Position numbers and translations under genes: made by a program. From assembly GCA_963678705.1 (NCBI GenBank), contig OY783211.1, forward strand, positions 14,832,603 through 14,896,602: a stretch of DNA of 64,000 nt. The letters run 5' to 3'. This stretch comes from Panorpa germanica (taxonomy: Eukaryota; Arthropoda; Insecta; Mecoptera; Panorpidae). Under the pieces are notes generated by a model. The model had not been told where the DNA came from. It did not search any database and saw only the letters and a list, made by a program, of their open reading frames with translations. Position 1 is the stretch's first letter, and each line of letters opens with the position of its first letter. Shown here piece after piece: positions 2,441 to 32,878 of the stretch.

Positions 2441-3316
2441 TTTAGGTTAATGGGCGGATTTTATAACACAATATTATTAATTTATTATATCCACATAATT
2501 TAGAAAATTTAAATGTATTATATACATCAAAATGAATATAAAGAAAACCTATTTAATTGAATTTATATTATAATACAATTTTACACAACATTAGCACTTA
2601 ACACAAATGTCAAACTACTTGTCATTCTTATCAAAACTCATTTGACTTTTCAATTTCTTTATGCGTGAAATCTTGGATGGGATAGGAAACTTAAGCGAAG
2701 CACAATTGCAAAGCAAAGTTGGCCAGAGAATTTTATGTAGACCTCTGGTGTGACCAGTACATATTAAAATGTTAAAATCAAAGGTTTTAGTTGGTTGCGC
2801 TTGGTTAGGAACATAAATTTATAATATTAATTTATAAAGTAATTGTGTGTCTTTCTTAAATATCTAGTTGTGATAGTGATAATAAAATAAATATAAATTT
2901 AAAAATAAATGAGTTATATTTAATAAAATATATAAAAGAATTAAATCTTGGTGTTTAAATGTATGCATTTAAGACAGAAGTAAAACATAAGCAGCCATTT
3001 TTATTTTAGCAGCGTTTGGTTTGCTAAATGACTGCAAATAATATGGTAAAATATGTTATTAAATGTCTTTCTATAATTTTTTTTTTAATTTTCGTTACTA
3101 TTTCGTAGTGGTTTTATATAAACACTAGTATAGTCTGTGATAAACACGTTAATTCCTAGCATTCCGTATTAGTTCAAAGTAGATAGTTTTTTTTATATTG
3201 ATATATTTTCAATAATCTTATTATCATTTTTTTAAATTTTGTTTCAGAAATATAAAAAGGTTTGCTTGAAGTGATATAGAGAAGTTAATTGTTATACAGA
3301 TATTACAAATAACAAA
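2441..3316. promoter_or_regulatory. Shared 5' region between WDR81 (-) and RBBP6 (+)
   Basis: The 876 bp between the two divergent start codons should hold both promoters and 5' UTRs. The less AT-rich part at about 2630-2760 is the best place for a shared core promoter. A TTTCAG acceptor-like site ends at 3246, 70 nt before the RBBP6 ATG, and may close an intron in the 5' UTR. No TATA box or CpG island could be assigned with confidence. Confidence 0.5.
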
Positions 3317-6300
3317 ATGTCGGTCCATTATAAGTTTAAAAGTGCTCTTGAATACGATACTGTAGCATTTGATGGGTTGCATATATCGGTAAAAGATTTG
3401 AAAAAAGCAATCATACAGCAGAAAAGAATAGGAAAAACGACTGATTTTGATCTCCAGGTTACAAATGCTCAAACAAAAGAAGGTAAAAATAACGAAGTTT
3501 TGGTTTCGGGATATTATTTTCTTTACAAATATATATGTGTAAACATTTTAAAATGACAAACTAGCTAATTTGCAATATTTTTTCTAATAGTTTATACAGA
3601 TGACTCTGCACTAATAGCTAAGAATACATCACTCATTATTGCTCGTGTACCGCTTTCTCAGTCACAGAAAAAGTCATGGGAAGCGGGAAATACAGCCGGA
3701 ACAGGAGGAGCATCAGGAGGTTCTGTATTAGGTCAAAATCGTGGAGTTGATGGAGATACTGCAGCAGATCTTTCAAGAATGGTTGGTTCAGAAGAAGATA
3801 AAATAAAAGCTATGATGTCTCAAAGTACTCTCGACTATGACCCCAGCAAGTAAGTTCTTTTATTAGTTTGTATGTTTCTACAATAATTGCAATTAAAACT
3901 ACTAACGGTATTAGTGTTTTTAAAACTAAAAATATGTTTTTTTTTGCTCACGATGACAGATTTAAAAAGTAAGTAAATGCATGATCATAATGTAGCATAA
4001 TGTTAATTAAGGTTTATTTAATTAATAGTTGGTCTTTTATATGCAGTTATAGAACTTTCACCTGCGTTTGAATTTCTGTTATAAGTTAGTTAAGTTGATA
4101 GTCAATAGTTATCAAGTTAGATTTTAGATCTGATGTTTTAAAATAACGTTTACCATTTTTGTATTATTAGATTTACAAACTTATATGTACCCATGAATTG
4201 TTTTTGAATAGAATTTTTTAAAGTAAAACTAGATTAGTAGCACCTTTTTCTGGGAAAGGACTACTTCTATACGTATTCCACGTTTTACATGCATCTTATT
4301 TAATCGGTTATAGCAATGACATTAGAAGCAAGTTTTTGTTATAAGGTTTGCTATATATGGAGTGTATTACTAAATATTTTTTGTTACTACTATACGTACC
4401 GACACTTGCATCGCAGTCTGTCAAGTAACTGTATTATGAAATAGAATTCATATTTTCCCTGAAAGATATAATATAGTTGATTGTTAAGTGTGAAAATACA
4501 GGAATTTAATAAAGAAAACAACGTAAAATATCATTGACATAATAATAAAATTAAACAGAAATGTAATTTTAATTTTTGTTTCGTTTCATTATGTTTTATC
4601 TATAGACTAATCAATAAAATATTACTTTAGATAATATACTAATTTAAATAAAATATACTTTATAATATTATTTTCATAATGGTTTAATAATATTTAAATT
4701 GGCTTGAAGCTACATGTACACCTATATTATAAAGTCTATATCAGTTGAGTTCTTGAGGCGAAGTTTTGAGTTCTTGGACACTATTAGAAAAGTAATTAAA
4801 CATAATTTTATAAAAGGGAAAGTTTTTAATAATAATGTTTTGATATGCAATGTATTTGCATACAATTGTTCTGGAATTTAGTATATCTTATTTGGAATTG
4901 TTTAATTTGTGAATGTTTGTAATTTTTTAAATGTAATAATTACAACAGTATAAATACTGAATATTAATAAAATTTTGTAAAAATATACAGTTTATTTTTG
5001 TATAGTATTTATTCTGTATTTTTTTTTAATTTCGAACTTACAATTACATTGCTTTCTGTGTTTAAGTAAATATAAAATTACAATATTTTATCTTTGTTAT
5101 AGTTATCAAAAGGTTCGAGGTTCTAGTCAACAGGGTGAAGTCCCTCCGAATTATCGCTGTTATAAATGTCACCAGGCTGGTCATTGGATTAAAAATTGTC
5201 CTCAAGGAAGTGGAGTGGTACGCACAAAAATATTAGGTGATTTATTAATATTACTTACGTGTATGTTGTAATATTTATTTTTGTTTGCATAAAATAGGAA
5301 CCTATAGATAGTATCAAGCGAAGTACTGGAATACCAAGAAGTTTTATGGTTTCAGTTCAAGACGGAAGTGTACCTGGGGCAATGGTAACTCCTGGTGGAT
5401 TTGCTGTTTCAAGTGGAGAACAACAGTAAGAATTTTTTTACCGTCATATTTTTTATCTCATAACATTTATTTCTTTTACTAATTATATAAATATTATACA
5501 TAATTTTTTTTTATAGTTCCAATCTCACTGCCGATCCACTTAAAGATTTTGCACATGAAGCGAAAATTGTCAAACCTGACATTCCGGAAGATCTTCTTTG
5601 CAAAATTTGTACTGATTTATTAACGGACGCAGTAATGATACCATGCTGTGGAAATTCTTTTTGTGATGAATGTATGTTTTAATAAATTATTGTTGTAGTT
5701 TAAAAGTTGAATTACTACTAATTTGAATGTTATTTATGCAACTAGGTATAAGGATGGCTTTGCTGGAATCTCCAGACCATGAGTGTCCAGATTGTAAAGA
5801 TAAAGAAATTTCACCTGGTACGCTTATTCCCAATAGATTTTTAAGAAATTCAGTTACGGCTTTCAGGGCACAAACTGGATACCAAAAAACTAGGAAGTAT
5901 GAACCCAAAACAAACAAATCATCAGGTGAGCGTGGTTTTAATTTTATTATGCTTAGTAGCCAATCAGTTTACTTTGTAGAAAGAAATAATATGAATTGTA
6001 TACCTATATTATTTTTATGAGTTTTTAAAGCAATAAATAAATATATGAATGTAGTTATATTGTTATTTTATTTAGATGACTTAAATTATGAAGTCTTTTG
6101 TATAATGTTTGGCTTTTTAAAAAAAAAAAAATAGTAATTAAAATTTATTATATAATATGACATGTGCAAATTAATATAAACTAATTTGATATTTCTTAAA
6201 AGAATAAAATGAAGTGACAGTATATATATTTATAAATATTAATTCTATATGTATATATATAAGATGCAGGTTTTGGAATTGTGTTTTGAATTCGTATTTT

Positions 6301-9300
6301 AATTGTTTGAAAAATATTAGTTGATTTTAGTTTTGAATTCAGTAAAGAAGAAGAATTAACCGCGCAAATATAATTATTTATTTCGTTTTATGATGGATGT
6401 AAAAAGAAATGAAACATATTTTTTTACTTTGATAATTTATATTATTTTTAATTTTTAGTCAGTGCCCTATTTATATAATATTAACTTACATGTATGTAAA
6501 ACTCAAGAAAGGAAGAAATTTGTGCAGATATATGTAATAAACTATCTCTAATATTGTTTAATAATAAGTGATTGATTATATTTTTGTATAAAATTTATCG
6601 CCATTTGCTGTTGTAGTGATTATTAAATTAAATTGAATTTGTGTATATGACTCTTTACAGTAAGAAAGAGTTAAGAGTTTGTCAGTTGATATTTTTTTGT
6701 GCGTGAATAAAATTTAAAAAGCTCAAATGAGCTGTCATTTACTCGGCATAACAGAAAAATATATTCTAACTTAAACTAAAAAAATTCAAAAGCTCAACAT
6801 AACTCTTAACTCAAAATTATTAATTATTTTCAGTGGAATTAAAATCTGAAGTAATATTTGATGCAGAAAATCCAACTTCAACATTGCCTGTGAAATCAGA
6901 AGAAATTAAACCAATCGTAAAGGTTGATAATGATTTAAACATGGTGGTCTTTAAACAAGAAAGTTCTGAGACTGAAGACATATCAGTAGAGAACAAATCA
7001 AAAGATAACGCAAGATCAGATGGTGATAACGCAGATTTAAAGCAGTCTGATGAAATTATAAAAAGTACTGTAATATCAGAAGCAGATTCTACACAAAATG
7101 TGAAATTATTAAAAGTCGTTGAAAAGGAAGAAATCAAAGAACAAAAAGATAAGAGTCCCAAATTTTCTGATCCAGAAGAAGGTATTTATTTTTAGTCCTA
7201 TTTTAGTCGCATATTTCGGTTTTAAAATTCAATTTTAACGCTCCCGTTTGCTCCTATAATTTAAGAACCTGCTGATGACGATCTGGACAACGATCGTCCA
7301 CCTGGTGTAGAAGCCGATTCCGATGCAGATGATGAAGATAATATTACGATTACCTTGCCACCTCCTCATTTTCAAAACAGAGGAAACTTAAGAAATGGTA
7401 ATTATTTTTATACGAATATATTGAATGGAAATTGAATATTTGTAAATAATTTTGCTTTTAACAGTTTTAATGGTAATTGATTCATATATTTTGTTTTCAG
7501 GAGGACCTAGGCATATGCGGCCATTTTTAAGACCGCCTGGAGTAGAAACACCTCCGCACAGAAATCATCCTGTAATCGTAAGTCTGTTATAGTTTAAAAA
7601 AATTACAATTAATATTTACGAACGCTCTATAATATATTGCTTACATCTTTTACAACAGTCGAGAATATCGCCTCCAACTAATCCCGCTGTTCTTATGGCA
7701 ACTAATGAAGATCGTCCAGGTACGCCAACGGTTGATGAACAAGAATCTTATTTACCAGGAGCAAATACAAATCCTAATGTACATCCACCTAGTGTTGTAT
7801 CTCATGGACCAAGCGGACTTCATCATGGAGATCAAAATCAAGTACATCACCATCACCATCAAGTAGGTGGAGGGATGATGCCGCCACCAGTAAATCATCC
7901 TCCAGGGCCAACTGGGCAAATGATGATACGAGGACCTCCACCACCACAAAATCAAATGCACGGTTCATCACTTGGGCCTCTAGGTCCTCATGCACATGTG
8001 CCTATGCAAGCACAAGGACCACCGCCTGATTTATATCAACATCCGCATGGTCACCCACCACCCCATCAACATTATGGAGGTCACCCTCCTCCAGGACACT
8101 ACCCACCTCCTGGGGGTCCAAGACCCGACTACAATCCACATATTCCGTAAGTATTTTAATAGTTATGAATTTCAATTATTAAAGTTAATATCAATTATTA
8201 AAATTAATTTATTTGTAGTCAATATATACCCTCTCAACATTATGATACCAGAGCTCCACCGCCTGGGGTTCCATATGGCCGAGGCAGAGGTGTACCATCT
8301 TATCGGGGCGGATATGAACCGAGAGGACCGCGACCTGTGCACCCTGGATACGGGGAACATCATCAAGCTCCTCCAATAATCAGAACTATTGGAACTGCTG
8401 GGTATTTATTTTATTCTTTATTATTTGAATAAATGTCAAAACTAAAATATTAATTCTATTTGAAATATTTTTTAGAGTTATCGATGACCCTCTTGAAGCT
8501 TTTAATCGCATGCTTCGTGAGAAAGATGAACGGGATCGAAGACTTCGTGAAGAAAGAGACAGACGCCGAGATGAACGACGCGGCCGTTCTAGGTCTTCTT
8601 CATATTCAAGGAGTTCATCTAGTTCTAGATCAAGGTCGAGATCTAGATCTTATTCTAGGTATGAAACGAACTATTATATCATCGCAATTTGTATTATCTA
8701 TTGCTTAATTTTTTTTATTCAATTGATCTTGTTTTGTAGGTCTCGCTCTGCACCTAGAAAGCATTCTAGATCTCCCAGAAGAAGATCTAGATCGCCAAGG
8801 AAACACTCACGAACCAGAAGCCGCACGAAGTCTTTCAGTATTAGCAGGTGTGTACCACTGTACGTTAAGTTGTTATTGTAGTAATCGCAATAATATTGAA
8901 AAGAAAAACACTCTACTCAATTTTAGGTACAATTTAGTAATTAATTTAAATTAAATTACAGGTCTCGTTCTTATTCACGGTCAATTTCTCCACGTGGTGA
9001 TCATTCGCCCAGACGTCACCAAAGATACAGATCTCCTTTAAGAACGCCTCCAAGGTTGGTATTAATTATTAATTAATAATTTCATTAGTTATAGTAGTGC
9101 AACTTGAGGCTACATCATAAATCAGTAATATTTTTACTCGTATGTTTTAATTATACAAATAATAATACAAAAACAAAAACTCTTAAGCGTATGTAACGTA
9201 TCATATCATATTTTCTGACAATATATTTTATTTGTTTCTCATTTGGAACATCCGTATCCATTATTACTGAAGCTTATATAAATTTTCTAACAATTTCTTT

Positions 9301-12300
9301 TATTACAGGTATCAATATAAAGATTCAAATCGTGGGCATCACCAGCAACATCACGATCATGGTCGCGGTAACCATACGCCGTCTCTACAACACAAAAGTC
9401 ACAAAGGTCATAACAATCATCGTAATGACTATCACCGTAATAATCGCGACTTTTCACCCCGGTCACCACCTCAGACTGGTATTTCTTCTTATTATGATAA
9501 TCATTCGCATTCTGGTGGTCACCATAACATCGGCCACGGCCATACTTCACATCCTGATAGTGTGAATACCTATCACATGCCACGCGGTGGAGGTAGAGGT
9601 CGTGGTCGAGGAGGTTATAGAGGTGGTATAGGAACAAATAATGGAATGATGCATAATACACATGGTGGAGATTATGGAAACAATTATGGAGACACTGGAG
9701 GAACAAATTCTGGACAAGGACATGGTGGAGGACCTATATCAAATCCGCATGGTCAAGGATATGGAAGGTATTTATCTATTAATTTCTCATATATCATAAA
9801 ATTTATAATATTTTTTATTACTTTATTTCCCTTAGATATATGTTATTATGTTTTATTTTTTATCACTCAAAGAATATTATAATTTACACAATTTATATCT
9901 TTATTTTTGTTAACTAGATGTTTCACTGGTAAATCATGTTTATTTTCTTTTAAATCTATTGTGTCTTGAATCTATTCCAACTATAATATTTTATATATCA
10001 TACCACTAAGTTTTATCTATATAAGAAATACGTATTTTAAATGTCTGATATCTAAGTTAACGTTGTTTGAGCAAAGCAAATTAAATTCGAGGACATAATA
10101 TCTAAATTGAAAAATAATGTTACGTTATTTCCAAAATGTAATGTGCTGATATATAAAATGTTATAACAACATTATGGTTTTGGATGTAAGCATGCGTGAA
10201 ATTCTTATTTAACGAAGTTAATTATGTATTGTGTATTATATTTCATTATGAAATTTAATATAATATTCTAATGTTTATATATGCAATTTTACAGAAGTAT
10301 AATTATACGTTTTTCTAATCTTATAGAGATTCGTCGCTCAAATACGTAGTAAATTTTTAATTAGTACAGCTAACTATTAAGTCCCTAATTGTAATATATT
10401 TTATGTTAAATTATTTTAGAAATAATGTAAATCAGCTGCCAAAAAAACTTCCTAATTCCAGTAATTAAAAACTTATTCAAATAACTAAGAAATAAAAATT
10501 TTAATCTTAAATTTGTCAAATATAATACGACATTTGTCATAAACTAGAACGCGATGTAACTTTTTGGAGAGCATAATTTTTTCGTTACATCGTCAAAAAA
10601 ATTGTTACCTTGATAACATTTGTGTACGAATACAATCTTGAATGTTAACCAATTTTTCATTATAGATAATGAATTTTTAAAAATGTATAAGTTTTTTATT
10701 ACATGGAATTATTATTCCTAAAACTGTCTATAATATTTGGCGGAAATGTTAAAAATGTGATATACTCTGTGATGAAAATTATGTTTTTGTTAATTTTATA
10801 GTCAATCTTTTAAATGTATTGTTATTATTTGTAGTATTAAAATGCAGTATTTGTAAATTTTGAAATACTATAGAATTTATAACAAACAATTAAAATTTCG
10901 TTAAAAATGATGTATATTTTTTATTAATAATTATTTTACGTTATTAATATATTTTGAGGAATAAGGGTTTAACTGTCTTTACGTAATCTAGATAGTTACA
11001 ATTGTTCACTTTAATTATAAATTTGCGACCTTAGGTTTAGGTGACCTATTCTCTTTTAATTTTGAATTCAATATTATGCTTTTCTGAGTCATGTATAAAA
11101 TGACATTTGATACTAGACTAGCTTCTAATTTGAATAATTCCGAGCATTTTTTAGTTGGTATTTCTTTATTCGTTGGAGGTAAAGGGGTTATTTTAACGTA
11201 TCTGTTACATATTTCAAAAACTAATATCTGATGCTGCGTTAATAGAGTTGCCTACTTTTTTAAAGCCAGGCGTTTTTATCTTCAAATAAATAAATAGATT
11301 ATCGAGCTAGATGTTCAGTCAAGTGAATAAATTTAAAATTATTTATTATAAAAAGAATGTGTATAAAACAATCCTAAAGATTTTATTTTAATATATAATG
11401 GAAAATATAAATTTAGGTCAAGTAAAGTCTAGTTTAAAAATATATTTTAGAAACATCATTCGGTAAAAACCATTATACTCTTAAAATTCATATATCCATT
11501 TTATTTATATAAAAATAGAATTTTATAAATTGTGGCTATAATGTAAATCTATCTCTGTTTCAATTTAGTAAAATATATAGGGGTTGTTAGAAAGAGATAC
11601 GTAGCAGTTACAGCTGGGACTTTAATGTGTTTATATATAGAAGTATAATCTCTATGTTGGTTTGCATCAGGTGCTGGAGTATAATACATTAAATCTATGT
11701 ACATTACTTTGAAAAGAATTAATAAGATAGCGAGCAGAATTAGTTTGCAAGAGGAATTTAGAATTGAATGATTTTATTTTCCTTTGTTTATATTCTTACG
11801 AAAAAGAAATGTGTATACACAAGAGTGAATCTCAGGGTTATATTTTATTTAGGCGTTATCTTGTCAAAATTTCAATAAATCTTTTCACAATTCAATTGAA
11901 AATTAACAACTGAATCAATTTTTCGTAACTATTTCAGTTGTTGAACGACATTTGCAAAAATCCCATAGAAAATTCCAGAATTCAGATTTTCCAGAATTTA
12001 CCAATTTTTTGGGCAAATTTTCCAATTACTATTACGAAAATTTGAAAAAAAAAATTAGCCTTTTAGATATTTTTTGTTAGTTACTATTTTCTAAAATATA
12101 TTACGAGTAGCAAATAAATTTGCACTTGCAAGTGCCGTGAAATTTAAAGAGAGAACTATTACGTTAATTTTAAAGTACACACACTGACGTCACGTTTCTT
12201 AAGTCTCTTCTACTTTATAGATATTATGCAAATGACATCTATAAATTAATGGATGATTTAATATTTTGTTTGTTATTAAAAAAGCAATATTGTTTATTTT

Positions 12301-15300
12301 CATAAATATGTACAATACATATCATATAAGCACTACGTTTGTAATTTAATAGTTCATTTCATAACGTTTAATAAGCCACAAATAATTATCAAATAACCTA
12401 CCCCAACATAATGAATCACGTACAGTATAACGTGGAATTCACTTTGACGTCTAAGTTTTATACAGTTATGTGTTTTATATTTATATATAAAATTATTATT
12501 ATTATTTATATTTAATTTTATATATTTTTTAAATTAAAAAAACGGTGTATGTATGTTTTAGATTCAACAAATTCAGCAAAGTAATGATTTTAACTTGAAT
12601 ACTTAAAGCGCCTGATATAAATGCAACGATAGTTACAATAAATACTATTTTAATTGTTTTTATAATGGTTTTTATTCGAATATTATAACTAATACTTGAA
12701 TAGTAAATTAGAAATAATTTTCTATAAGATTTATAATTGGGAAAAATGCATTTCTTTAAAATTTTAATTATTTAAAATAATAATAATGTGTATAAAATAT
12801 ATTTTTAACTACATATTAATCGTGGAACATCTGTAAAAATATCTGTATATATTATATATAAATAGTAATCATATAGTTCATATTTCGAGAGTTCGTCGGC
12901 GATTAATGCTTAAAACAAGTTGTACTGTATAAATCTGCGATACTCTGGGGCGAAAGCACTGTCTTACTTATTTTTTGTAATCACCGTGGCAGCGTAGATT
13001 TATGCAACTCTTATAACTTATTTTAGGCATGGGTCGTCTCTGAACTATCATAATATGAACTATATATTATATCCGCTCTACAAATATGTAGAACGTGTAT
13101 TCGTTTTAATGAATATCAATTCAGCAATTGTATTGAGATTATAACGAAGAGTAAAATATCAAATGTTAGAGGGTAAATTTTTACATTTCATTTAAAAAGA
13201 AAATAACATCTTTCGACTAAAAACAAAATGAATCAGAAAAAATGTTGTACTGGGGTTTAATATTCTCTAACTTAATATTATTCTGTAGTATAAATTACAG
13301 ATAATTACATGATAATCAGTACTAAGTCAGCGAATATTTTTTTAAATTTTTTTCTGGCTACATTGGCTATTATTTTATACTCTTATTTTATTGAAGTGTC
13401 TTCACTTATTTGCAATTTGCAAAATGCTATTTGAAAGAGATGTTTTAAAGTTTATTAAAGAGTAAATTTTTTATAAGAATATTTAGAGCTGTGATGTATT
13501 ATAATTTATTTTTTATAATTACTTTTATTTAGTCTTAACTGTTGATATTTATTTCTTGTGCAATTTTGTGTGGGTTTTTTCATGTACATTTTTTAAAAGA
13601 CTGTTTTATTTACATATATTGTAAATACTCGTAGTTTATATAATATTTATTTATGTGACAATATTTTATAGAAATTGAATGAAATATTTTTAATGTAACT
13701 TACGGAAAATATTTTTTATAAATAAGTCTGAAATATATTTTTATTTAAATATTCTAAAGTTTCTATTAATAGAAAATTTAAATAAGATACGAAAGTGGTA
13801 ATACTAATATTTTTTGATTCGGTGTCATATAAAAATAGTGATAAGAAGACAAAATGTGAAGACATATTTTTGGGAAATATTCTAATTTCAATGATGGTGG
13901 TTTTACATATTTGTTTTTCCTTTCTAACAATAATGCGCGATTATTCTATTAGCCTTAGTTGCTAACTTTTTTTTCATTTTTATATTTTAATAGCACATAA
14001 TGAATACTATTATTGGTTTAAAATTAAACTCTTGTATTTTATGGTTATATAAAATCTTTGTTTAGTTATCTATTTTCTGGCTCATTAGCATTTTGTCCTT
14101 ATATGTAAATATTCTACTTTTTAAGTATATCGTGAATTTTAAGGTTTAGTTTTTTTTGGTTTATCTTAAGATTAATTTGTCAATACTTTTTGTAATTGTT
14201 TTTCTGTTTGCCTATCTAAGAGTTTAATAAATAGACTTTAATATTTCTGAAATTTAAATATTTTTGTACAGTATATAATCTCAAAAAACAATAAAATAAT
14301 AATGAATGTTATGGAAAGAAATTGATGAATACAGTGGTAAAGTTAGTATCTGAAAATCGTTATAATCTAATAAATTCTAAATTTAAATATTGAAATAATA
14401 AGGTAGGGTGAAATATTACTAAATGAACTTAAGCATATTTATATCAGACCTATTTATTTAAATATTACGCCTTGTACATAAGAATCATTCAATAATTGTA
14501 AATATATTTGTAATATATAATATTCCTCTATATGATAATATTTAGAATGTAAATATTATGTAGGAGGATTGTTGTTATTCCTAATTTTGTATAATTTTTC
14601 TAATTTTTGTTTGTATGTTGTTTTTTATATAATAATTATTTTGTAATATTGTAAAATTATTTATACCTTAAGTTAATAATATTAATTTATATTTATTATG
14701 AGACATAGTGATTTTAGATTCGAATTCAAACTCAAGTGATAATATCATGTGATAAAATAATAACTGAAAGACTAAAAAAATAGTATTTAATAGTGTACAA
14801 AAAATACTGCTGTTTATGTATTTTTATAAAAAAAAAACAAAATGAAAAAAATATATACCAGTTAAAAATTTATTTTTAGTATTTTATTACTGGAATTATG
14901 AAAGATAAAATTGAAAAAAAAAGTCAAATGTATTATTTTAGAAAAAATTTTTGAAGAAAGAAGAATTAGTTGCAGCTTCTAGAAGACGTTAATAGAAGAC
15001 GAAGAATTTGAAGATTTTTTTCTTTCCTTCATGATCATTCCTTTCCTTAAAAAGTCTAGTTTTATTATCTGTCAATTTTTATTATTTTCGATAGGAATTC
15101 GTGATATATATTACTGTAAGGATTTTCACAAACTTGTCTTTTAGAAGAATTCTCTCCTTTCGTTAATTTGTACATTTCTGTGCAACTTTCTACAGTTATT
15201 AGTTTTAGAATTATAAGTGCACTACGATTGTCACACATCCGGAATATGATATCTTACTGATATACGAATACGATTCCAGGTATTTTAATTTAAATTACGT

Positions 15301-18300
15301 AAATACTAAAAAAAATTGTTTATTTTTACGAAAAATTTAATTTATAATTCCGAACCATTTTGAAGCGAACATAATTTATTGTAAAATCTATTCAGTACAA
15401 AATATTCCAAGCATTAATTATGCTGTTTTATTTCGGACATCGGTGTAACTTCATTTATTCTGATTTTGATTTCGTTTTTTTCTTCGCGCTTTATGCTAAC
15501 AGAACAGGCTATAATTTGCAGGATTTTTCTTCTCCATTGTTACTATGTGATGACTGAGATAACGGCGTTACCATGTTATGTTGGTGGGTGTACCAGGTCT
15601 CATCTGAGAACTTAGTTATCCAACATCGGGCGCAGTCGTTACCTGTGTTATGAAGAACTGTGCATCACTGATCAAATGGTGATAAAGCAGTGATTCTAAA
15701 GCAGTAAGACAGCGAAGCCTTAATCAGTGAAAATCTTACATTTTATGAGTAAAATTTGATCTGTTTAATTTAATGTAATATTTTAGATCTCTAGAGAAAC
15801 GGATAATTATAAGTAAAAAGTGCGATTTGAAATTTTATATTTATTAATTTATGCAAAACTTCCGTTTTGTGTACAGCGCGAACATGCATATCAAATTATA
15901 TTAAAACCGCGTTTTTCTTGAAGATAATAATTCATCTTATGGCACTAAATCTTTGACAACAAAATGTAGATTCAGTTTTATCTGCTTGCAAGAATTTTGC
16001 CTGTAACAAATCCCGAAAGAACACGAGGAAATACTTCACTATCACAATTTTGAAAATATACGTGTGTAATTATTTCAGACTAAAAGTTAGAGTATTTTCT
16101 GTAACAGCCTATTTTACTCATCTAAGTTAGAATTTTCTTCACATAAATAATAATAAAAAAAACTAGACTTTTCCTGAATTTATCCTTTTCAACTTTCTTT
16201 TATTTTCAGCACTGTCAAGAGTGAAACATAACCCCCATCTTTATTAAGGAGGCTGTGGTCATGTTTTCTTTTAAAAGTGTTTGTTTTAAGAAAGCATTGA
16301 TCTATCTGTTTACACGGTAATACCGAAAGGAACATCTGGAAATAAAAGAGAGGTTCTAAATTTACTTATTAGCTTATGAAATGACAAAAGCTTTTAAATT
16401 CATTCCTTCTTACAAGGTTTCCTTGATCACATCTGTAGAAACCACGTTTTATCTGCAGCCAATTTTCGAATTCTAAGTATTACCAAGTACAGTAGGAGTA
16501 TATAGATCTAAGTATATAGAACTATAGAACCTTTGTTGTGTAACACATCTTGTTTCCTTTAGTGACTAAATTAGCTGGAGGAAAAAGGAGGTATACAAAA
16601 AAGTTTTTCCGTTGCAACATTTTTTTTTTCTTAATATAAGTTTTTTTTTTTCATAATTAGTTATAATTAGATTATGTTTTATTTGAAAATTAATTTATTG
16701 ACATTTATTCCTATTCAGGTATCGTGAGAAAATGCCACCGAGACCAAACAATTTTACTCCATTGATGAACTTAAAGCCTACGATTCCAGGAATGTATAAC
16801 CATCAGGACAATAGATACGATGAAAATATAACTATGCATAATAATCCGAATTATCGTCGGTTTGAGCCTCCCCGTGACGAGATACCTCCAGGAACAGAGC
16901 CACCTGTTCCAGGTTTTGAGCCACAAAGATACAGACCAGAAGAAAGATCATATCGTGAGGATAATGACCGATACCGAGATAATGAATATAATCGTGATGG
17001 CAATCAATACAGAGATGATTTTGTAGCAAATACCAATTATCGTGATGATTATGGAAATTATGGAAATATTAACGAGACCCGTGATTTATCTAGGGATAGA
17101 AATGATAGACAAGCAAATCGAGATGATAGAGAAGATAATCGTCATGAAAGAACTCGAGATCATGATAAGAGAAAACTTACTCCATCTCCAAAGAAAGAGA
17201 GAACTTCTTCAACTGAGAGGCATAGAAGGAAATCATCGAAACGAGATTCTTCTCCACATAAATCTGATAAAGGTGCATCTAAAAAGGATGATAATAAAGA
17301 ACGGGAAAAAGAAAAGGAACCGAAAGAAAAGGATAAGGAGAAGGAAAAAGAGAAGAAGAGTAAGGAAGGTAAGGAAGAAAGGAAAGAGCGTAAAAGAAAG
17401 AAGAAGGAAGCAGAAAAGAAGAAGAAAAAAGACCGTAAACGTGATAAAGAAGAAAAATCTAAGCATAAAGATAAAGATACAATTGTTGATCCTATTGAAA
17501 AAGTGAATGAAATAAGTGTAGAAGCTGTATCGAATGACACAGTTTTTGTTGCACCAGAAATTGAAGAGGCAGCAGCAGCAGCAGTAACAGCAGCACTGAT
17601 TGCAAAACCGGAAACTACAGATTTGTACGGGGACATTATAACGGAAGGAATTGACAATTCAATTGTAGAAAATTACGGTAAGATTGAAGAAGCAATGGTT
17701 GAAACTATGGAAATTAATAAGGAAAGTGATGAAATACCAGATGTAAAGGAAGCAGAAATCGATGACAAAGATATCTCATTTGATGGACTAGTTCTACAAA
17801 CATCTGAATTTGATAAAATCGATCTTTCTACAGAAAGTCCCAAGAAATCTGTTGTTTTACCTTTGCCAGAAATTTCAAAATGGGAACGTGAGGAAGATAA
17901 TATCAATATGGGCGATGCTAAACTGGATTCTCCAACGGAGAAATCCGGTAAAGTAACAAATGAAGTTTTAAAACGCGCTGAGAACGCAATCTTTGCAAAA
18001 GCAATTAATGCTATACGACCTATTGAAATTAAGAAAATTAGTTCCGATCGTATTAAGTTGTACAGCAACGAGAAAGCTGAGGCATTACCGGCACCGTTAC
18101 CTATTAAAGTAACTACCACAGACCGAGAAAGACGCAACATCCAAATAACGATTCCCACTAACACAGATATAAGAACTGTGGAGGTAAACACAGGAGATAT
18201 GATGAGAAAGAAGTTGGACCGGTCTAAAATAACGACTTCACCAACAAGAATCTCAGTGAAAGAAAGATTAGGACATAAAATTGACGAAATTGATCGGAAA

Positions 18301-19662
18301 ACTAAAGATAGACATTCTGGAACAAATACACCACCACCTAGGATGGAAAAAGAACGTAAGGTTATTATAGAGGATAAATATAAAACTGAACGTAGTGGTG
18401 ATGATCGAAGTCGACATAGAGAAGTGAAGCATACAAAGGAAAGAAAATGTGAAAGGAAAGAAGAGAGATTGGATCGTAGAGTGGAAGATAAACCAGATCG
18501 TAGGAGCACGGATAGGTCTCGCAGTCGTAACGAACGTCGGGATCGTGTAGAGAGTCGTGTAGAACGACGGGATGATCGCAGCGAACGTCGTGAAGATCGC
18601 TTAAATCAAAATGAACGCAGGGATGACCGCGTGGATCGAAGAGAAGATCGTAATGTGGATAGAAATGATCGGGATAGGGAGCGAGATCGGGAACATCGTG
18701 ATAGAATTGATCGCCATAGAGACAGAAGTGAAAGAATTGTAGACAGGAACGATCGCATTGACAGAAATGATTATAGAATGAATGACAGGGTGGACAGGAA
18801 TGACAGGAATGATAGGAATGATAGGAATGACAGAAATGATAGAAATGAGAGATCTGACCGCAATGATAGGAGTGATAGACGATTCGACAAGGTAGAGCGC
18901 AATTCAAGAGAACGTAGTCGTAATGATCGTGATCGGTTGGAATCTAGGATTAACAGATCAGTGGATGTGAAACAAGATGACCATCGCAGAATCGAACCAA
19001 AACCGGATAAATCCAGGAAATCTCGTTCCAGATCACTTAGTGAGTCGAGAAAAACAAGAAAAGATAAAAAGCACAAGGATAAAAAGGATAAATTGAAACG
19101 TACTAAATCAACTGAAGATAAAACTAAAGATTCAAGCAATAAAGTTGCGTCAGATAAAAATATTGTTTCAAAGGATGAAAATGATAAAATGGACAAGGAA
19201 GATGATGTAAAAAGGAATCTTAAAGTCACAGATAGAAAAAGATCAACAATAGATGAATCCAATTTTGAACCTGATTATGATGAGACATCTGAAGTGGAAT
19301 TGGATCCGAATGCAGAAAAAAGTGTAAAGAAACGCGATCGTTCAAAGAGTAAGGAATCTGCCGAAATTTGTGAATCACCTAATAAAAAGGTCAAAGTAGA
19401 TGAAGGTGATAAAAGAGAAATTAAGAAACGTACAAGGACGGTGTCTGAAAGCTCGTCTTCAAGTTCATCTAGCGATAGCTCTTCAGAATCTGAAGATAAA
19501 AAGAAGAAAATATCTTCTAAAAAACATAAGAAGCATCGCAAACGAAAATCATCTAAGAAACAAAGTTCTTCTGAATCTGACAGTGATAGTGAAAGTAAAA
19601 AGAAAACTAAGAAGAAGAAGAATAAGTCTTCTAAAAAGAAGAAGAAGTCCAAACATAAGTAA
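3317..19662 (+). CDS. RBBP6: RBBP6 / snama homologue, E3 ubiquitin ligase and 3'-end processing factor, 16 coding exons, complete
   Basis: Exons: 3317-3482, 3591-3849, 5103-5217, 5298-5425, 5517-5671, 5746-5925, 6834-7181, 7266-7397, 7501-7577, 7659-8146, 8219-8401, 8476-8658, 8740-8847, 8962-9054, 9309-9767, 16719-19662. All introns are GT-AG and the total is 6018 nt, 2005 aa plus stop. Domains in order: DWNN ubiquitin-like fold (about 1-80, beginning MSVHYKFKSALEYDTVAFDG); CCHC zinc knuckle C161-C164-H169-C174; RING/U-box-like finger with C251, C254, C266/C267, C272, C275, C288, C291; an acidic stretch; a Pro/His/Gly-rich stretch; VIDDPLEAFNRMLREKDERD followed by an RS domain; an RGG/GYG-rich exon; and a long charged tail with AENAIFAKAINAIRPIEIKK. 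In the family (yeast Mpe1, fly snama/mnm, human RBBP6) the protein activates pre-mRNA cleavage and polyadenylation and can ubiquitinate p53 or YB-1. Start choice: the ATG begins the canonical DWNN sequence. Weakest junction: donor GTTGGT at 9055. Confidence 0.95.
9768..16718 (+). other. RBBP6 intron 15, 6.95 kb, mostly featureless AT-rich DNA
   Basis: Donor AG/GTATTT and acceptor CTATTCAG/G bound this intron. It is far longer than the gene's other introns. It holds one inverted-repeat element (12872-13064) and a less AT-rich block at about 15530-15740. Reading through the donor would add about 38 residues, ending at a stop at 9880-9882, so a shorter isoform without the charged tail is possible. 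No other exon was recognised in it. Confidence 0.7.
12872..13064. mobile_element. MITE-like element with ~75-bp imperfect terminal inverted repeats (family M1)
   Basis: The left end TATAGTTCATATT pairs with the right end AATATGAACTATA. The arms continue inward, with GCTTAAAACAAGTT opposite a block that reads GCCTAAAATAAGTT in reverse complement, and a shared ATAAATCTGCG / ATAAATCTACG. There is no coding capacity. Two diverged relatives lie at 27955-28163 and 63499-63694, which supports a mobile family. Confidence 0.75.
16719..19662 (+). CDS. RBBP6: Terminal RBBP6 exon, low-complexity charged C-terminal tail
   Basis: This 2944-nt exon (acceptor CTATTCAG) encodes the last 981 residues and stops at 19660-19662. 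It is rich in Lys, Glu, Arg and Asp, with a short Ala run (about 17566-17596), an Arg/Asp/Asn repeat block, two Ser-rich runs near 19450 and 19565, and a Lys-rich end (KKKKKSKHK). In vertebrate RBBP6 the C-terminal half binds Rb and p53, but the low complexity here means partner sites cannot be transferred. Long open frames on the other strand and in the +1 frame of this exon are composition artefacts. The conserved AENAIFAKAINAIRPIEIKK block near 17978-18038 is the part best shared with other RBBP6 proteins. Confidence 0.92.
18640..18890 (+). repeat. Coding tandem repeat, (R/D)-N-D-R units
   Basis: Inside the last RBBP6 exon, 9-nt units such as GACAGGAAT and GATAGGAAT repeat with third-position variation and encode serial Asn-Asp-Arg triplets; the cleanest run is at about 18780-18870. 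The unit is a multiple of three, so length changes keep frame. Likely variable between individuals. Confidence 0.8.
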
Positions 19663-28833: not shown

Positions 28834-28840
28834 GATGTGC
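28834..28840. repeat. Target-site duplication of the P-like element, left copy (GATGTGC)
   Basis: GATGTGC directly before the left terminal repeat; the same 7 bp follow the right terminal repeat at 32872-32878. Confidence 0.85.
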
Positions 28841-28974
28841 CAACACCTCCTAAATATACAAGGCCTAACTGCGATTTTGTGACGTCATCACTTGTAGTCA
28901 TCTGAACCAACACCTCCTAAATATACAAGGCCTAACTGCGATTTTGTGACGTCATCACTTGTAGTCATCTGAAC
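28841..28974 (+). repeat. Left P-element terminus, two perfect 67-bp tandem copies
   Basis: Positions 28841-28907 and 28908-28974 are identical, each running from CAACACCTCC to AGTCATCTGAAC. Each contains the near-palindrome GTGACGTCATCAC. The right end has only one copy. The duplication must have arisen inside the element, since the target duplication lies outside both copies. Confidence 0.93.
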
Positions 28975-29410
28975 ACCAGATGTTTTACACAATTCTACCT
29001 AAATATACTTGAAATGTACTTTAAGGGTATTGATTTAGTACAATTTAGAATCTCTCTGTGCATTACGTATTGTATTTACTTCCATGTTATTTCGGTTAAA
29101 AAAATCGTATAAAATATATAATTAATTAAAAATATAAATAATCAGTCTTAAGAGGGTGTATTTATAGTAACTGTGTTTGTGTTTTTTTTTTGTTTATATT
29201 TGGTTTAAACATTAAACTGTTTTAATCTAAAAATTAGTGTTGTGTATGAAAACCTTGTATGGTGTATGTGCTGTAAATGTTTTACTGATCATTACGTGTG
29301 TAGAATTTTAGCTAACTGTGTAATATATAAAACTAATTATAATATTCCACAATTAATAACCAGTTTGTCGAGTGAGTGACTTCTTAAAGTGTAAATTATT
29401 AGACAACAAA

Positions 29411-32345
29411 ATGCCAAGTAGATGCTGCGTTCCACTTTGTAAGGGCAACTATCCTACGGGTCCAAAAGTATCTGTATTTGGCTTCCCTAAAGACGAATGC
29501 TTAAAAAAGAAATGGTGTTCTGCTATTCAGCGAAAGGCGTTTGTTCCGTCGAATAAATCCAAAGTAAGTAGATAATGAGAACGTATGCGTGAAAGATTAA
29601 TTAGACAAACATACCGACCATCACAAGACTATTATATTAAACTATTTACAGGTCTGCGAACTCCATTTCAAAAGTGACGATATTGAAACAGAATCGAAAG
29701 CGTATGACAACAAAACTGGTGTTCTAGTTTCAGCAACTCTTAAAGTCAAAAGACTAAAGAAAGGAACTATTCCTTCTGTATTTTCAAATTACCCCAAAAG
29801 TGTTGCATATTGCTCCTCAAGCAACACCTCGCCGGGCCCTTCAACAAATAGAGTATCTCCCGATTCAAAAGCCGAAGAAAGAGAAAATAGATTATTGAAT
29901 TCAGCGATCATAAACAGTATAAATTCAGCAAATGCCTATAATACCGATCGTAGAATTAATAATATAAACAACCTTCTGGATTGTATTAGAAAATACGGTG
30001 TTTCTGAGAGATGGTCACATCAGTATTTGCCAGATAAAGAGCTTATTTGCATTTTTTATTTAACTGTTGAACCTGAACCCTTAATTCAATATTCTATTAC
30101 AATAGATAAACATTTGGCATTATCGGTCTTTATAAAGAGTACATTAATTAAGAAAATAGGCCCAAAATTATTACCACAGAAAATAACTAGCTACAATGAG
30201 ATTACTGATATTTTAGAAACCATTGTTTTAATCAAGGCAGACAGTAAGACATGCAAAAGAAGTGCTACATTTCATTTAATCGATGAATTGTTAAAGGACG
30301 TTGTAACCAACAAGAATGAAAATATTTTACATTTCTTAAGGGGGCAAATAGAATTGTGCATATGTCCTACAAATAATTTTAGATATTCCCCTGAGTTATT
30401 AGTATTTGCTTCTTTATTAAATACAATTTCACCACATGCCTACAAGTTCTTAAGACAAAGTGGATATTTTATATTTCCGCATCCTAACACATTGAAGAAA
30501 GTATGCAATGATTTACATGTAAATCCGCAGTTAGAAACTAATGATAAAAATTTTTTGATGTACGCTAGTAATAGAGTAAGCTATCTTCAAGATTTTGAAA
30601 AAACAGTTATACTAATGATTGATGAGATACACATTAAACCATTTTTTGACTATAAGGGTGGATCTATTGTTGGTGCATCGTTTGATTCAAATACTGCGGC
30701 TACAAGTGCCTTTGTTTTTATGGTTTCCAGTTTATTATCACAATTTAAAGATGTTGTTCATATTGTACCAATTAAAACAATAAATTATGTAACTTTATAC
30801 AATTTGATAAAAAAGCTTATATTAGGGTTAGAAAAGGCGGGATTCAAAGTCATTTGTGTTGTTACAGATAACAATGCAATAAATAGAAAAGCTATGAGTT
30901 GTTTCGCTGTTCCTAATAAAACATCTTTTCTTTATCAGCATCCCCAGGATGCTAATAGGCCACTCTTCTATTTAATTGATTCGGTTCATCTTCTTAAAAA
31001 CATTAGAAATAACTGGTTAAATCAAAAAAATATTGGACAGTGTATGTTTTTTCCAGATTTTGAAAAAGGTGATAATTGTAGAACTGCATCATTTTCTGCT
31101 CTTAAAAAGTTATATGAAATAGAAAATACTGCAATCATTTCTTATGCACACGGGTTAACATTTAAGAGCATTGCACCTTCAAATCTTGAGCGCCAAAATG
31201 TGAAATTAGTGTTGAAAATTTTCAACCAATTTGTAGTTCAAGGTTTGAATGAAAAAGGACGTCTGCATAATATTGAGTATTATAATGATACGTCAATTTT
31301 TATTTCAATCATTTGCAAATGGTGGGATGTTATGAACGTTAAAACTGTATACAAAGGTTTACACAAAAGTAACATTTACATGACACCTTTAACAAAGGAC
31401 AAATCAGATCAGAAATTTATATTTTTAAACAAATTTATTGACTGGCTCGACGCGTGGCAACAAATGAATTTTTCCAGTGGTTGCTTTACTAATCAAACGC
31501 ACGATGCGTTAAGACAAACTACATACGGAATGTTAGAATTGTGTCGTTATTGCATAGACGAACTAAAATTTACTTATATATTACCAGGTAAAATTCAAAC
31601 AGATTTACTTGAAGATAGATTTGGCAAATATAGGCAATTAGCTGGGTCTCAATATCACATCTCCATGAGACAAGTTCTAGAGTGTGAAAAAAAATTACGT
31701 CTTCAATCAAATTTAAAACTAGAACTAATAATTAAAGATAGAGCAATGACAGTGCAAACATTACAATGTCCAGAAAATATTCTAGATAATATTGAAGATA
31801 CTAATGAAGCAATGACACCATTGCAATCGGTAGTAATTAGCGAAATGGATATAGCCAATGTAGAAGAATTATTACCTGTAATTACATATTTAGCGGGGTA
31901 TTGTTGTCATGCTGTTTTAAAAAAAATTAAGTGTAGCAAGTGTAAAGAAATCTTAACAATTGATAAGACAATTTCTTTACACCAGTCATACAATTTAATA
32001 AAAAATCTTGATCGTGGAGGCCTGATTTGTCCGACACCTTCTGTAGTCAATTTAGTTATGTACAATTATTTAATAGTTGAAAAGTTGTCTCGTGATATAG
32101 ATTTTTTCTCTCTCCAAAATCAGAGAAAATATATAATAGATGTTACATGCAAAACTTTAGAAGTTAAAGAAATGCTGTTAGAAGACCTTCTTGATCTCGA
32201 GTGTCATAACAACTATTATATATGCAAGTTATTAATTCATGTTTCAACTAATATTATGGTAAATAATTTATCATCTCGTAAAAATGACGACTTGCAACAT
32301 AATAAACAGTATAAGAAAAGAAAATTGCAAACTCTAACTACATAA
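29411..32345 (+). CDS. P-element-like (THAP9-type) transposase, two exons, intact
   Basis: Exon 1 (29411-29563, donor GTAAGT) joins exon 2 (29652-32345, acceptor TTTACAG) to give 948 aa, close to THAP9 (about 900). Exon 1 plus the start of exon 2 form a THAP zinc finger: MPSRCCVPLC, VSVFGFPKDE, W35, then C53-x2-H56 and the AVPTIF-like KKGTIPSVF. The RNase H-type core shows D375 in VILMIDEIHI, D457 in VICVVTDNNAINRK, the family motif LIDSVHLLKNIRNNW, and E705 in LLEDRFGKYRQLAGSQYH. The spacing resembles P-transposase D230/D303/E531. In P elements the THAP domain binds near the ends and the protein uses GTP for strand transfer; here that is inferred. ATG choice: it sits exactly at the THAP start. 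There is no stop or frameshift. Host-domesticated THAP9 is less likely because intact terminal repeats and a target duplication surround it. Confidence 0.93.
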
Positions 32346-32411
32346 ATATGGTTCTAAATATAAGTATTGTTATTGTATACACTCGTATATTGTTAAAAGA
32401 AATATATGAAA

Positions 32412-32417
32412 AATAAA
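32412..32417 (+). terminator. Transposase polyadenylation signal AATAAA
   Basis: AATAAA 67 nt after the transposase stop, well inside the right end of the element. Confidence 0.6.
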
Positions 32418-32799
32418 GTTAATATTTTTATATAATACATTTTTATTATTATTATTTTTATAAATATATATATATATATTATGGAAGGTATACCATTTTC
32501 CTTTTTTGCATATGTGTGTTACTAGTCTATTTATTTTAATTTTTGTAGAAATGTTACGATTTAGAAATGTTACTTAGTTTAAAATTAAATTTTCGATGTA
32601 TTTTACTTCTTTAATTACTCATTATAAAACCCTTACAAAAACCAATTCATAAACAAACAATTCATTAATTGCAAACTAATTAATAATTTAAAAATGATAG
32701 TCCTTAATAATTTGTAACCAGAAACTTTGTTCAATACCCTATATGATACTAACATTTTCAAACAAACTGTCTTATACCGATAGCAGAACTCAGCAGCAT

Positions 32800-32878
32800 A
32801 TGACTACAAGTGATGACGTCACATACCATTGACTGAATCGCTGTTAGGCTTTGTATATTTAGGAGGTGTTGGATGTGC
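32800..32878 (-). repeat. Right P-element terminal inverted repeat and target duplication
   Basis: Read on the minus strand, 32871-32800 gives CAACACCTCCTAAATATACA, then AGCCTAACAGCGATT, a short unmatched stretch, then GTGACGTCATCACTTGTAGT and CAT. Compared with the left arm it has about 10 extra bases in the middle. GATGTGC (32872-32878) is the right target-site copy. Confidence 0.9.

Follow-up and report, generated by a model that had tools for sequence, protein, structure and literature searches.

The window analysed here, a stretch of 64,000 nucleotides from Panorpa germanica (contig OY783211.1, positions 14,832,603 to 14,896,602 of the forward strand), contains a P-superfamily transposon of 4031 bp (positions 28841-32871), which starts with CAACACC and ends with GGTGTTG. 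The element is real, complete and very recently mobile, and its doubled left end makes it an informative variant of its family. We consider, with a probability of about 0.78, that it is an autonomous cut-and-paste transposon which creates 7-bp target duplications, belongs to a recent wave of transposition and acquired its doubled end through joining by the transposase. This reading draws on the observed anatomy of the element, its copies, their target duplications, a second insertion of the doubled-end form and the sites of four end junctions.

Anatomy and genomic copies

Both flanks of the element carry GATGTGC, a perfect 7-bp target duplication, as the initial annotation had reported (Table 1). 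The same annotation was right about matching terminal inverted repeats: the outer pair aligns over 37 nt at 95% identity (28840-28876 and 32836-32872), and the inner pair over 27 nt at 96% (28878-28904 and 32797-32823). Its 67-bp end corresponds to a real unit, but this is not a 67-bp inverted repeat; it is a left-end unit present in exact tandem, whose two copies are 100% identical and whose boundary can be placed to within 1 bp, since a C stands at both 28840 and 28907. The element has the P-superfamily features tested, namely a THAP domain, P-type helix-turn-helix (HTH) and RNase H/DDE domains, inverted repeats and a 7-bp duplication. Members of this superfamily are described with target duplications of 7 or 8 bp (PMC3276498).

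The 464,208,970-base P. germanica assembly, in which the window lies on contig C8, was searched with the left and right 200 bp of the element. The best 40 of 136 candidates were scored for the left end and the best 40 of 175 for the right, so that the counts are lower bounds; at least 29 places are 100% identical to the right-end query across 200 bp. The comparison set comprises 41 sequences (the window and 40 fetched stretches), of which 31 are two-ended. Ten others (L021, L045-L049, L051, L052, L055, and L056), in which an end is cut, mutated or shifted by an insertion or deletion, are excluded from two-ended counts, and the target duplications visible by eye in the gapped alignment of several of them are uncounted. 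Of the 31 two-ended copies, 29 are flanked by a perfect duplication of 7 bp and 0 by one of 8 bp; 28 distinct 7-mers are represented. A fresh wave accounts for 28 of these 31; its members carry 0-6 substitutions relative to the majority letter of each alignment column, and the six substitutions, found in four deletion copies, are clustered next to a small rearrangement.

The doubled left end and related duplications

In a search with exact 16-base termini, the doubled left end was found at one other place, L017 on C20 (chromosome 20). This copy is the same as that of the window letter for letter across 4031 bp, doubled end included, whereas its flanks differ and its target duplication is GAACGTC rather than GATGTGC. 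The doubled end thus occurs in 2 of the 28 fresh two-ended copies and, because the two sites differ in flanks and duplications, the doubled-end element has moved at least once by means of its outermost terminus. The doubling itself was probably made by the transposase, which would have inserted one of the element's ends into the element.

Terminal duplications were also searched for with units of 22-52, 52-82, 83-113, 116-146, and 147-177 bp, using exact 16-base ends only. Together with the right-end query, this identified three further cases, all at the right end. On C4, L049 has seven 141-bp right-end units head-to-tail, six of them identical and one with 2 differences: a small, satellite-like array that derives from a transposon end. 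The array (L049:1567-2553 in element orientation; G000:C4:10862939-10863925) stands beside an older copy whose left end is damaged. Also on C4, L075 is a 131-bp miniature that bears an additional right end of 84 bp and is bordered by a perfect 7-bp duplication, GACAAGC; on C12, L076 is a 78-bp miniature that bears an additional right end of 30 bp and is likewise bordered by a perfect duplication, GTTTAAC. In both miniatures (L075:1470-1600 and L076:1469-1546), two termini stand nearly head to head, accompanied by the additional right end. In all four repeated units, one boundary falls exactly at the element terminus.

If a terminus had been joined within an end, the 7 bases beside the junction should resemble a target, and this expectation was tested with a symmetrised motif built from the 29 perfect duplications. 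The strongest columns of the motif are G at -5 (27/29) and C at +5 (25/29), two bases outside the 7-mer. For two junctions, the combined p was 0.0012 with the 11-bp motif, 0.08 with the 7-mer and 0.003 with 15 bp; for three, it was 1.3e-5, 9e-4, and 1e-4, respectively, and 6e-6 with the 11-bp motif after removal of four training sites. The fourth junction was found after the motif had been fixed. When it is placed in the context of the older copy L046, whose sequence there matches the unit of L076 itself, the four junctions rank at 1.07, 1.12, 0.07, and 1.35% with the 11-bp motif (Fisher 2e-6), and the 15-bp combined p is 1e-5. With three junctions as with four, the predicted register was the best among shifts of -5 to +5. 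For positions within 200 bp of each end and the fresh context, the four junctions gave p 1.7e-4. Together, boundaries at the terminus and target-like junctions suggest that the transposase joined an element end into its own end, and that the four duplications may have been made in this way.

Several results weigh against this interpretation. The ranks vary with the width of the motif: for the 7-mer alone they are 5, 32, 0.07, and 39% (Fisher 0.0018). In the fresh element, the fourth junction ranks at 15.4% and the combined p with the 11-bp motif is 1.6e-5. The junction scores are 3.38, 3.34, 8.45, and 2.58, compared to a leave-one-out mean of 7.8 for real insertions, and three of the four lie below this mean. 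Nested intermediates, which one version of the end-joining model predicts, gave 0 matches in the genome. The motif width was chosen after the columns had been seen, and the L046 context after the value of 15.4%; the smallest p should be read accordingly.

The end duplications could instead have arisen by replication slippage, template switching during gap repair or unequal exchange, with no joining by the transposase. In favor of such an origin, which we consider unlikely, the end repeats of Galileo have been ascribed to duplication with later expansion and contraction (PMC3573991, PMC4168063), the seven units of L049 look as if they had been amplified by unequal exchange after a first duplication, and the missing nested intermediates point the same way. 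However, slippage or exchange has to contend with the exact placement of all four boundaries at the terminus (with the 1-bp ambiguity at the left end, and in L049 without microhomology) and with junctions that are target-like in the register of the 7-bp duplication, as the Fisher value and the register controls indicate. Moreover, Tandem Repeats Finder, applied to the 41 sequences for units of at least 60 bp, returned two other arrays, one of 70-bp units in L052 and one of 147-bp units in L056, neither of them within the matched element. The array in L056 (L056:124-1093) adjoins a 5'-truncated copy and is unlike the element sequence.

Age and activity of the family

The 21 full-length fresh copies form 210 pairs, which differ by a mean of 2.6 substitutions and at most 7; 14 of these pairs show none, so the last jumps must be very young. 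At about 3e-9 mutations per site in each generation, the divergence of the fresh wave corresponds to an age of the order of 1e5 generations. The open reading frame (ORF) is intact in 20 of the 28 fresh copies, with 948 amino acids in 15 and 944 in 5 (4 amino acids deleted); of the remainder, one lacks the last 5 residues and seven are internally deleted. Near-identical copies, perfect 7-bp duplications and intact ORFs together indicate very recent mobility of the family.

When the genome was searched with the protein and the best 51 of 430 candidates were scored, residues 1-897 of exon 2 were unbroken at no fewer than 22 loci, which stand out from decayed copies with identities as low as 70%. 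The family thus has older decayed layers and one very fresh wave. Compared with the older copies L047 and L048, the window element has ratios of non-synonymous to synonymous divergence (dN/dS) of 0.24 and 0.21, respectively. We read the family as a lineage that went through repeated waves while its transposase was kept under selection. The picture is less clear for six more decayed copies (L045, L046, L049, L051, L052, and L054), with ratios of 0.32-0.41, which can be explained by decay after death, as this should raise the ratio; the values for L021 and L056, 0.76 and 0.50, derive from only 4 and 3 changes. These higher ratios stand among the points against our reading. The joined flanks of the window copy retrieved no empty paralogous site from the genome.

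Internally deleted copies have moved too. A 770-bp deletion is common to four copies, three of which lie within about 52 kb on C12, and two 2603-bp copies with different target duplications lie within 11 kb on C19; short-range hopping is suggested as the explanation for such clusters. L042 and L043 share 300/300 bases of left flank, so just one of the two is independent. They lie in opposite orientation on C12 (16.61 and 16.56 Mb) with differing right flanks, and L043 has no matching duplication; the pair may have arisen by an inverted duplication that broke where the element ends. As for distribution, the X chromosome (contig C21) holds 7 of the 28 fresh copies, compared to 2.9 expected by length (one-sided p 0.02, uncorrected).

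The initial annotation had proposed the element as a good candidate for an autonomous transposon and had pointed to further copies of the ends and their divergence as a check. The fresh copies with their target duplications and intact ORFs support that candidacy on sequence grounds, and the opposite case, a single copy sharing its ends with no other element, is excluded for this genome. The family may still be active today. It is doubtful that the family, although recently mobile, has since been silenced, for example by PIWI-interacting RNAs (piRNAs), so that the window copy would be intact and inactive. Silencing would agree with what is generally known of transposon control, whereas the pairs of full-length copies free of substitutions place the last jumps very close to the present.

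It is very improbable that the copies are assembly artifacts or segmental duplicates of a family that did not move recently. The shared flank of L042 and L043 is the kind of evidence that this would produce, but it was the sole common flank at E 1e-3 in a flank comparison of the 31 two-ended copies; the distinct duplications and different flanks led us to reject this explanation, and the HiFi assembly has a reported quality value (QV) of 59.9 (PMC11464959). Finally, the intact ORF might also be expected of a domesticated host gene or a long-fixed relic, a possibility that we give next to no weight and reject, since near-identical copies with perfect target duplications occur on many chromosomes in different flanks, together with deletion derivatives that have duplications of their own.

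The predicted transposase

The initial annotation had described a 948-residue open transposase with a THAP finger and with D375, D457, and E705 as catalytic candidates, and these descriptions agree with our results. The predicted splicing of two exons, whose boundary had been correctly placed at 29563/29652, yields a stop-free frame of 948 amino acids; by chance, at the base composition of the element, 948 stop-free codons would occur with a probability of about 2e-35. In the spliced protein, Pfam recognizes THAP (PF05485, 5.8e-15, residues 5-95), TNP-like RNaseH_N (PF21787, 1.2e-15) and the Tnp_P_element HTH (PF12017, 4.2e-7). Among solved structures compared by sequence, exon 2 has a single match, the Drosophila P transposase (PDB 6p5a, E 7e-12), and the three candidate residues align to the columns of its catalytic triad. 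An NCBIfam search gave no match, and one scan of viral contigs did not find a relative.

The window frame was aligned with eight other P-like frames from the same genome, for a total of nine rows including its own. D457 is present in 9/9 rows, as is the D494-x2-H497 pair of the [C/D](2)H motif, and E occupies the E705 column in 5/5 rows reaching it. For the Drosophila enzyme, the role of D230, D303, and E531 has been reported, and the triad and the [C/D](2)H motif have been described (PMC8230255). In a model of a 486-residue core, made with AlphaFold2 from the alignment with the eight other ORFs, D375 belongs to a strand and E705 to a helix, and D457 follows a strand by two residues. The best Foldseek matches of the model are the P transposase structures 6pe2 and 6p5a (E 5e-10, template modelling score 0.26-0.30). 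This model is supportive of a P-type fold, although not strongly so.

Residues 1-100 match the structures of human THAP2, THAP1, and THAP11. Other observations argue in the opposite direction: the P-element THAP structure was absent among the 5 structure hits of the first 100 residues, the D375 column has D in 5 of the 8 rows reaching it and G or A in the remaining three, and the AlphaFold2 models are poor, with a mean predicted local distance difference test (pLDDT) score of 32.7 for exon 2 alone and 47.2 for the core.

Unequal spacing of the end repeats

The outer (36 bp) and inner (27 bp) repeats are separated by 1 bp at the left end and by 12 bp at the right, and together span about 64-75 bp. 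This asymmetry had gone unnoticed in the initial annotation, as had the tandem nature of the left end. Each inner repeat contains a perfect TGACGTCA (window 28880, 28947, and 32814), a palindrome that we take to be CRE-like, that is, similar to the cAMP response element. Counted from the nearer end, it starts at base 40 on the left and base 51 on the right in 27/27 fetched fresh copies. When one mismatch at most is allowed, it starts at bases 39-40 from the left and 49-51 from the right in older copies with readable ends, with a second one-mismatch match at 52-53 in several older left ends; the position is 37 in the damaged left end of L049, and the truncated right end of L021 gives no valid value.

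The inner repeat would be the transposase site, and the palindrome could be bound by a host factor or by the transposase. In the Drosophila P element, the two ends have spacings of 9 and 21 bp, which have been likened to the 12/23-bp spacers of V(D)J recombination (PMC7776569). The unequal spacing seen here may serve end pairing.

Proposed mechanism and implications

According to the model that we favor, the THAP domain and partner domains would bind the end repeats, and the RNase H core, with D375, D457, and E705, would cut both ends and join them 7 bp apart, in a palindromic target whose G and C lie two bases beyond the 7 bp that become duplicated. The spacing of 1 and 12 bp between outer and inner repeats would distinguish left from right when the ends pair. 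Most likely, the doubled left end formed when the transposase joined the left terminus of one copy to a site that resembles a target and lies 67 bp into the left end of a sister copy or of another one, either by insertion of the hybrid-element type or by a nested insertion that afterwards lost the rest of its sequence. In its doubled form the element has since moved at least once by its outermost end, and the array of L049 would require a second step, such as unequal exchange.

In hybrid element insertion, as described for P elements, ends on sister chromatids or homologues cooperate and flanking rearrangements result; a title cited in these sources includes duplications among them (PMC2775673, PMC3744419). 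A hybrid insertion with its target inside the own end of the element would yield the observed structures. More broadly, and with slightly less than even odds, the transposase of such an element may repeatedly join a terminus into target-like sites of the element's own ends, giving mobile terminal tandem repeats and arrays, and this could be a general engine for long and repetitive ends, as in Galileo-type and foldback elements, and for satellite DNA derived from transposon ends. The origin of such ends and satellites becomes testable, since junctions are expected at the terminus and at target-like sites. In addition, a P-superfamily family outside Diptera with about 20 intact, near-identical copies provides a start for a second P-type transposition system and material for testing what unequal end spacing does.

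Feature coordinates and genomic surroundings

Table 1. Features of the P-superfamily element, in positions of the window.
Feature	Positions	Strand	Remark
Target site duplication, left (GATGTGC)	28834..28840	+	Identical to 32872-32878
67-bp left-end unit, outer copy (outer terminal inverted repeat + inner repeat)	28841..28907	+	Exact tandem duplication
67-bp left-end unit, inner copy	28908..28974	+	Equivalent of the single left end in other fresh copies
Left outer terminal inverted repeat	28841..28876	+	34/36 positions match the right end
Left inner (subterminal) inverted repeat, contains TGACGTCA	28878..28904	+	1 bp from outer repeat
Transposase exon 1, first part of THAP domain	29411..29563	+	
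Intron GTAAGT...TTACAG, 88 nt, GT-AG	29564..29651	+	Predicted; splice-site letters identical in 28/28 fresh copies
Transposase exon 2 (rest of THAP, HTH, RNase H core, C-terminal region), including stop	29652..32345	+	
Codon of catalytic candidate D375	30621..30623	+	Alignment to P transposase
Codon of catalytic candidate D457	30867..30869	+	Invariant in 9/9 aligned P-like sequences
Codon of catalytic candidate E705	31611..31613	+	E in 5/5 aligned sequences reaching the column
AT-rich microsatellite	32422..32482	+	Site of most length differences among full-length copies
Right inner (subterminal) inverted repeat	32797..32823	-	12 bp from outer repeat
Right outer terminal inverted repeat	32836..32871	-	
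Target site duplication, right (GATGTGC)	32872..32878	+	

Upstream of the element, on the + strand (window 3275-19662), lie frames that encode a DWNN domain (1.7e-22) as well as a zinc knuckle, presumably RBBP6/Snama-like, followed by RS-rich (arginine/serine-rich) frames without Pfam matches. Genome-wide, at least 150 matches to the P-type RNase H domain PF21787 were obtained (best 150 of 241 candidates). Most of these are not copies of the family in the window, so several other P-like families seem to be present in the genome.

Comparison with known systems

Mecoptera are not Diptera, and the initial annotation had stated that P-type elements are mostly decayed outside the latter order. This statement finds no support in a survey that records the P superfamily in all arthropods covered, in terms of presence and not intactness (PMC6327564), nor in zebrafish, which has a P-like element that the fish's own THAP9 can excise (PMC10983969). 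Panorpa is unmentioned in the literature sampled on Mecoptera transposons, from which we draw no wider claim that the family is unpublished.

The element 1360, which we take to be Hoppel, is likened to the Panorpa element by description only. It has a modal target duplication of 7 bp and a palindromic target, GTTNAAC (PMC3276498), whereas the strongest target positions of the Panorpa element lie 2 bp outside the 7 bp.

The Drosophila P element also combines a THAP, HTH, and RNase H transposase with inverted repeats plus inner sites and has internally deleted copies; the unequal spacing of the repeats here may correspond to that at its two ends (PMC7776569). It differs in its 8-bp duplication, its length of 2.9 kb (about 4.0 kb here) and its target motif, and assignment to the P element proper was rejected on the counts of 8-bp and 7-bp duplications (0/31 and 29/31). 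Zebrafish Pdre2/THAP9 is likewise a P-like element outside Diptera that is excised by a P-type transposase; unlike the Panorpa element, Pdre2 has 13-bp repeats, 12-bp inner repeats and an 8-bp duplication, and THAP9 did not transpose Pdre2 in the experiments described there (PMC10983969).

Two further systems are comparable in their ends. In Tetris/TIR-220 of Drosophila virilis, repeats in the foldback ends grow into satellite-like arrays; in contrast to the Panorpa element, complete copies are described without conserved ORFs, the duplications are of 8-10 bp and the repeats lie behind an outer flanking domain (PMC4079207). Galileo shares the 7-bp duplication and, in some copies, tandem end repeats (PMC4168063, PMC3573991, PMC3688188, PMC2775673), whose growth has been ascribed to duplication, expansion and exchange (PMC3573991, PMC4168063). 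Despite the common duplication length, assignment to Galileo was rejected: its ends measure about 300 bp to 1.2 kb (PMC3573991), whereas those of the Panorpa element, with repeats of 36 and 27 bp rather than hundreds of bp, span about 64-75 bp and carry occasional terminal duplications.

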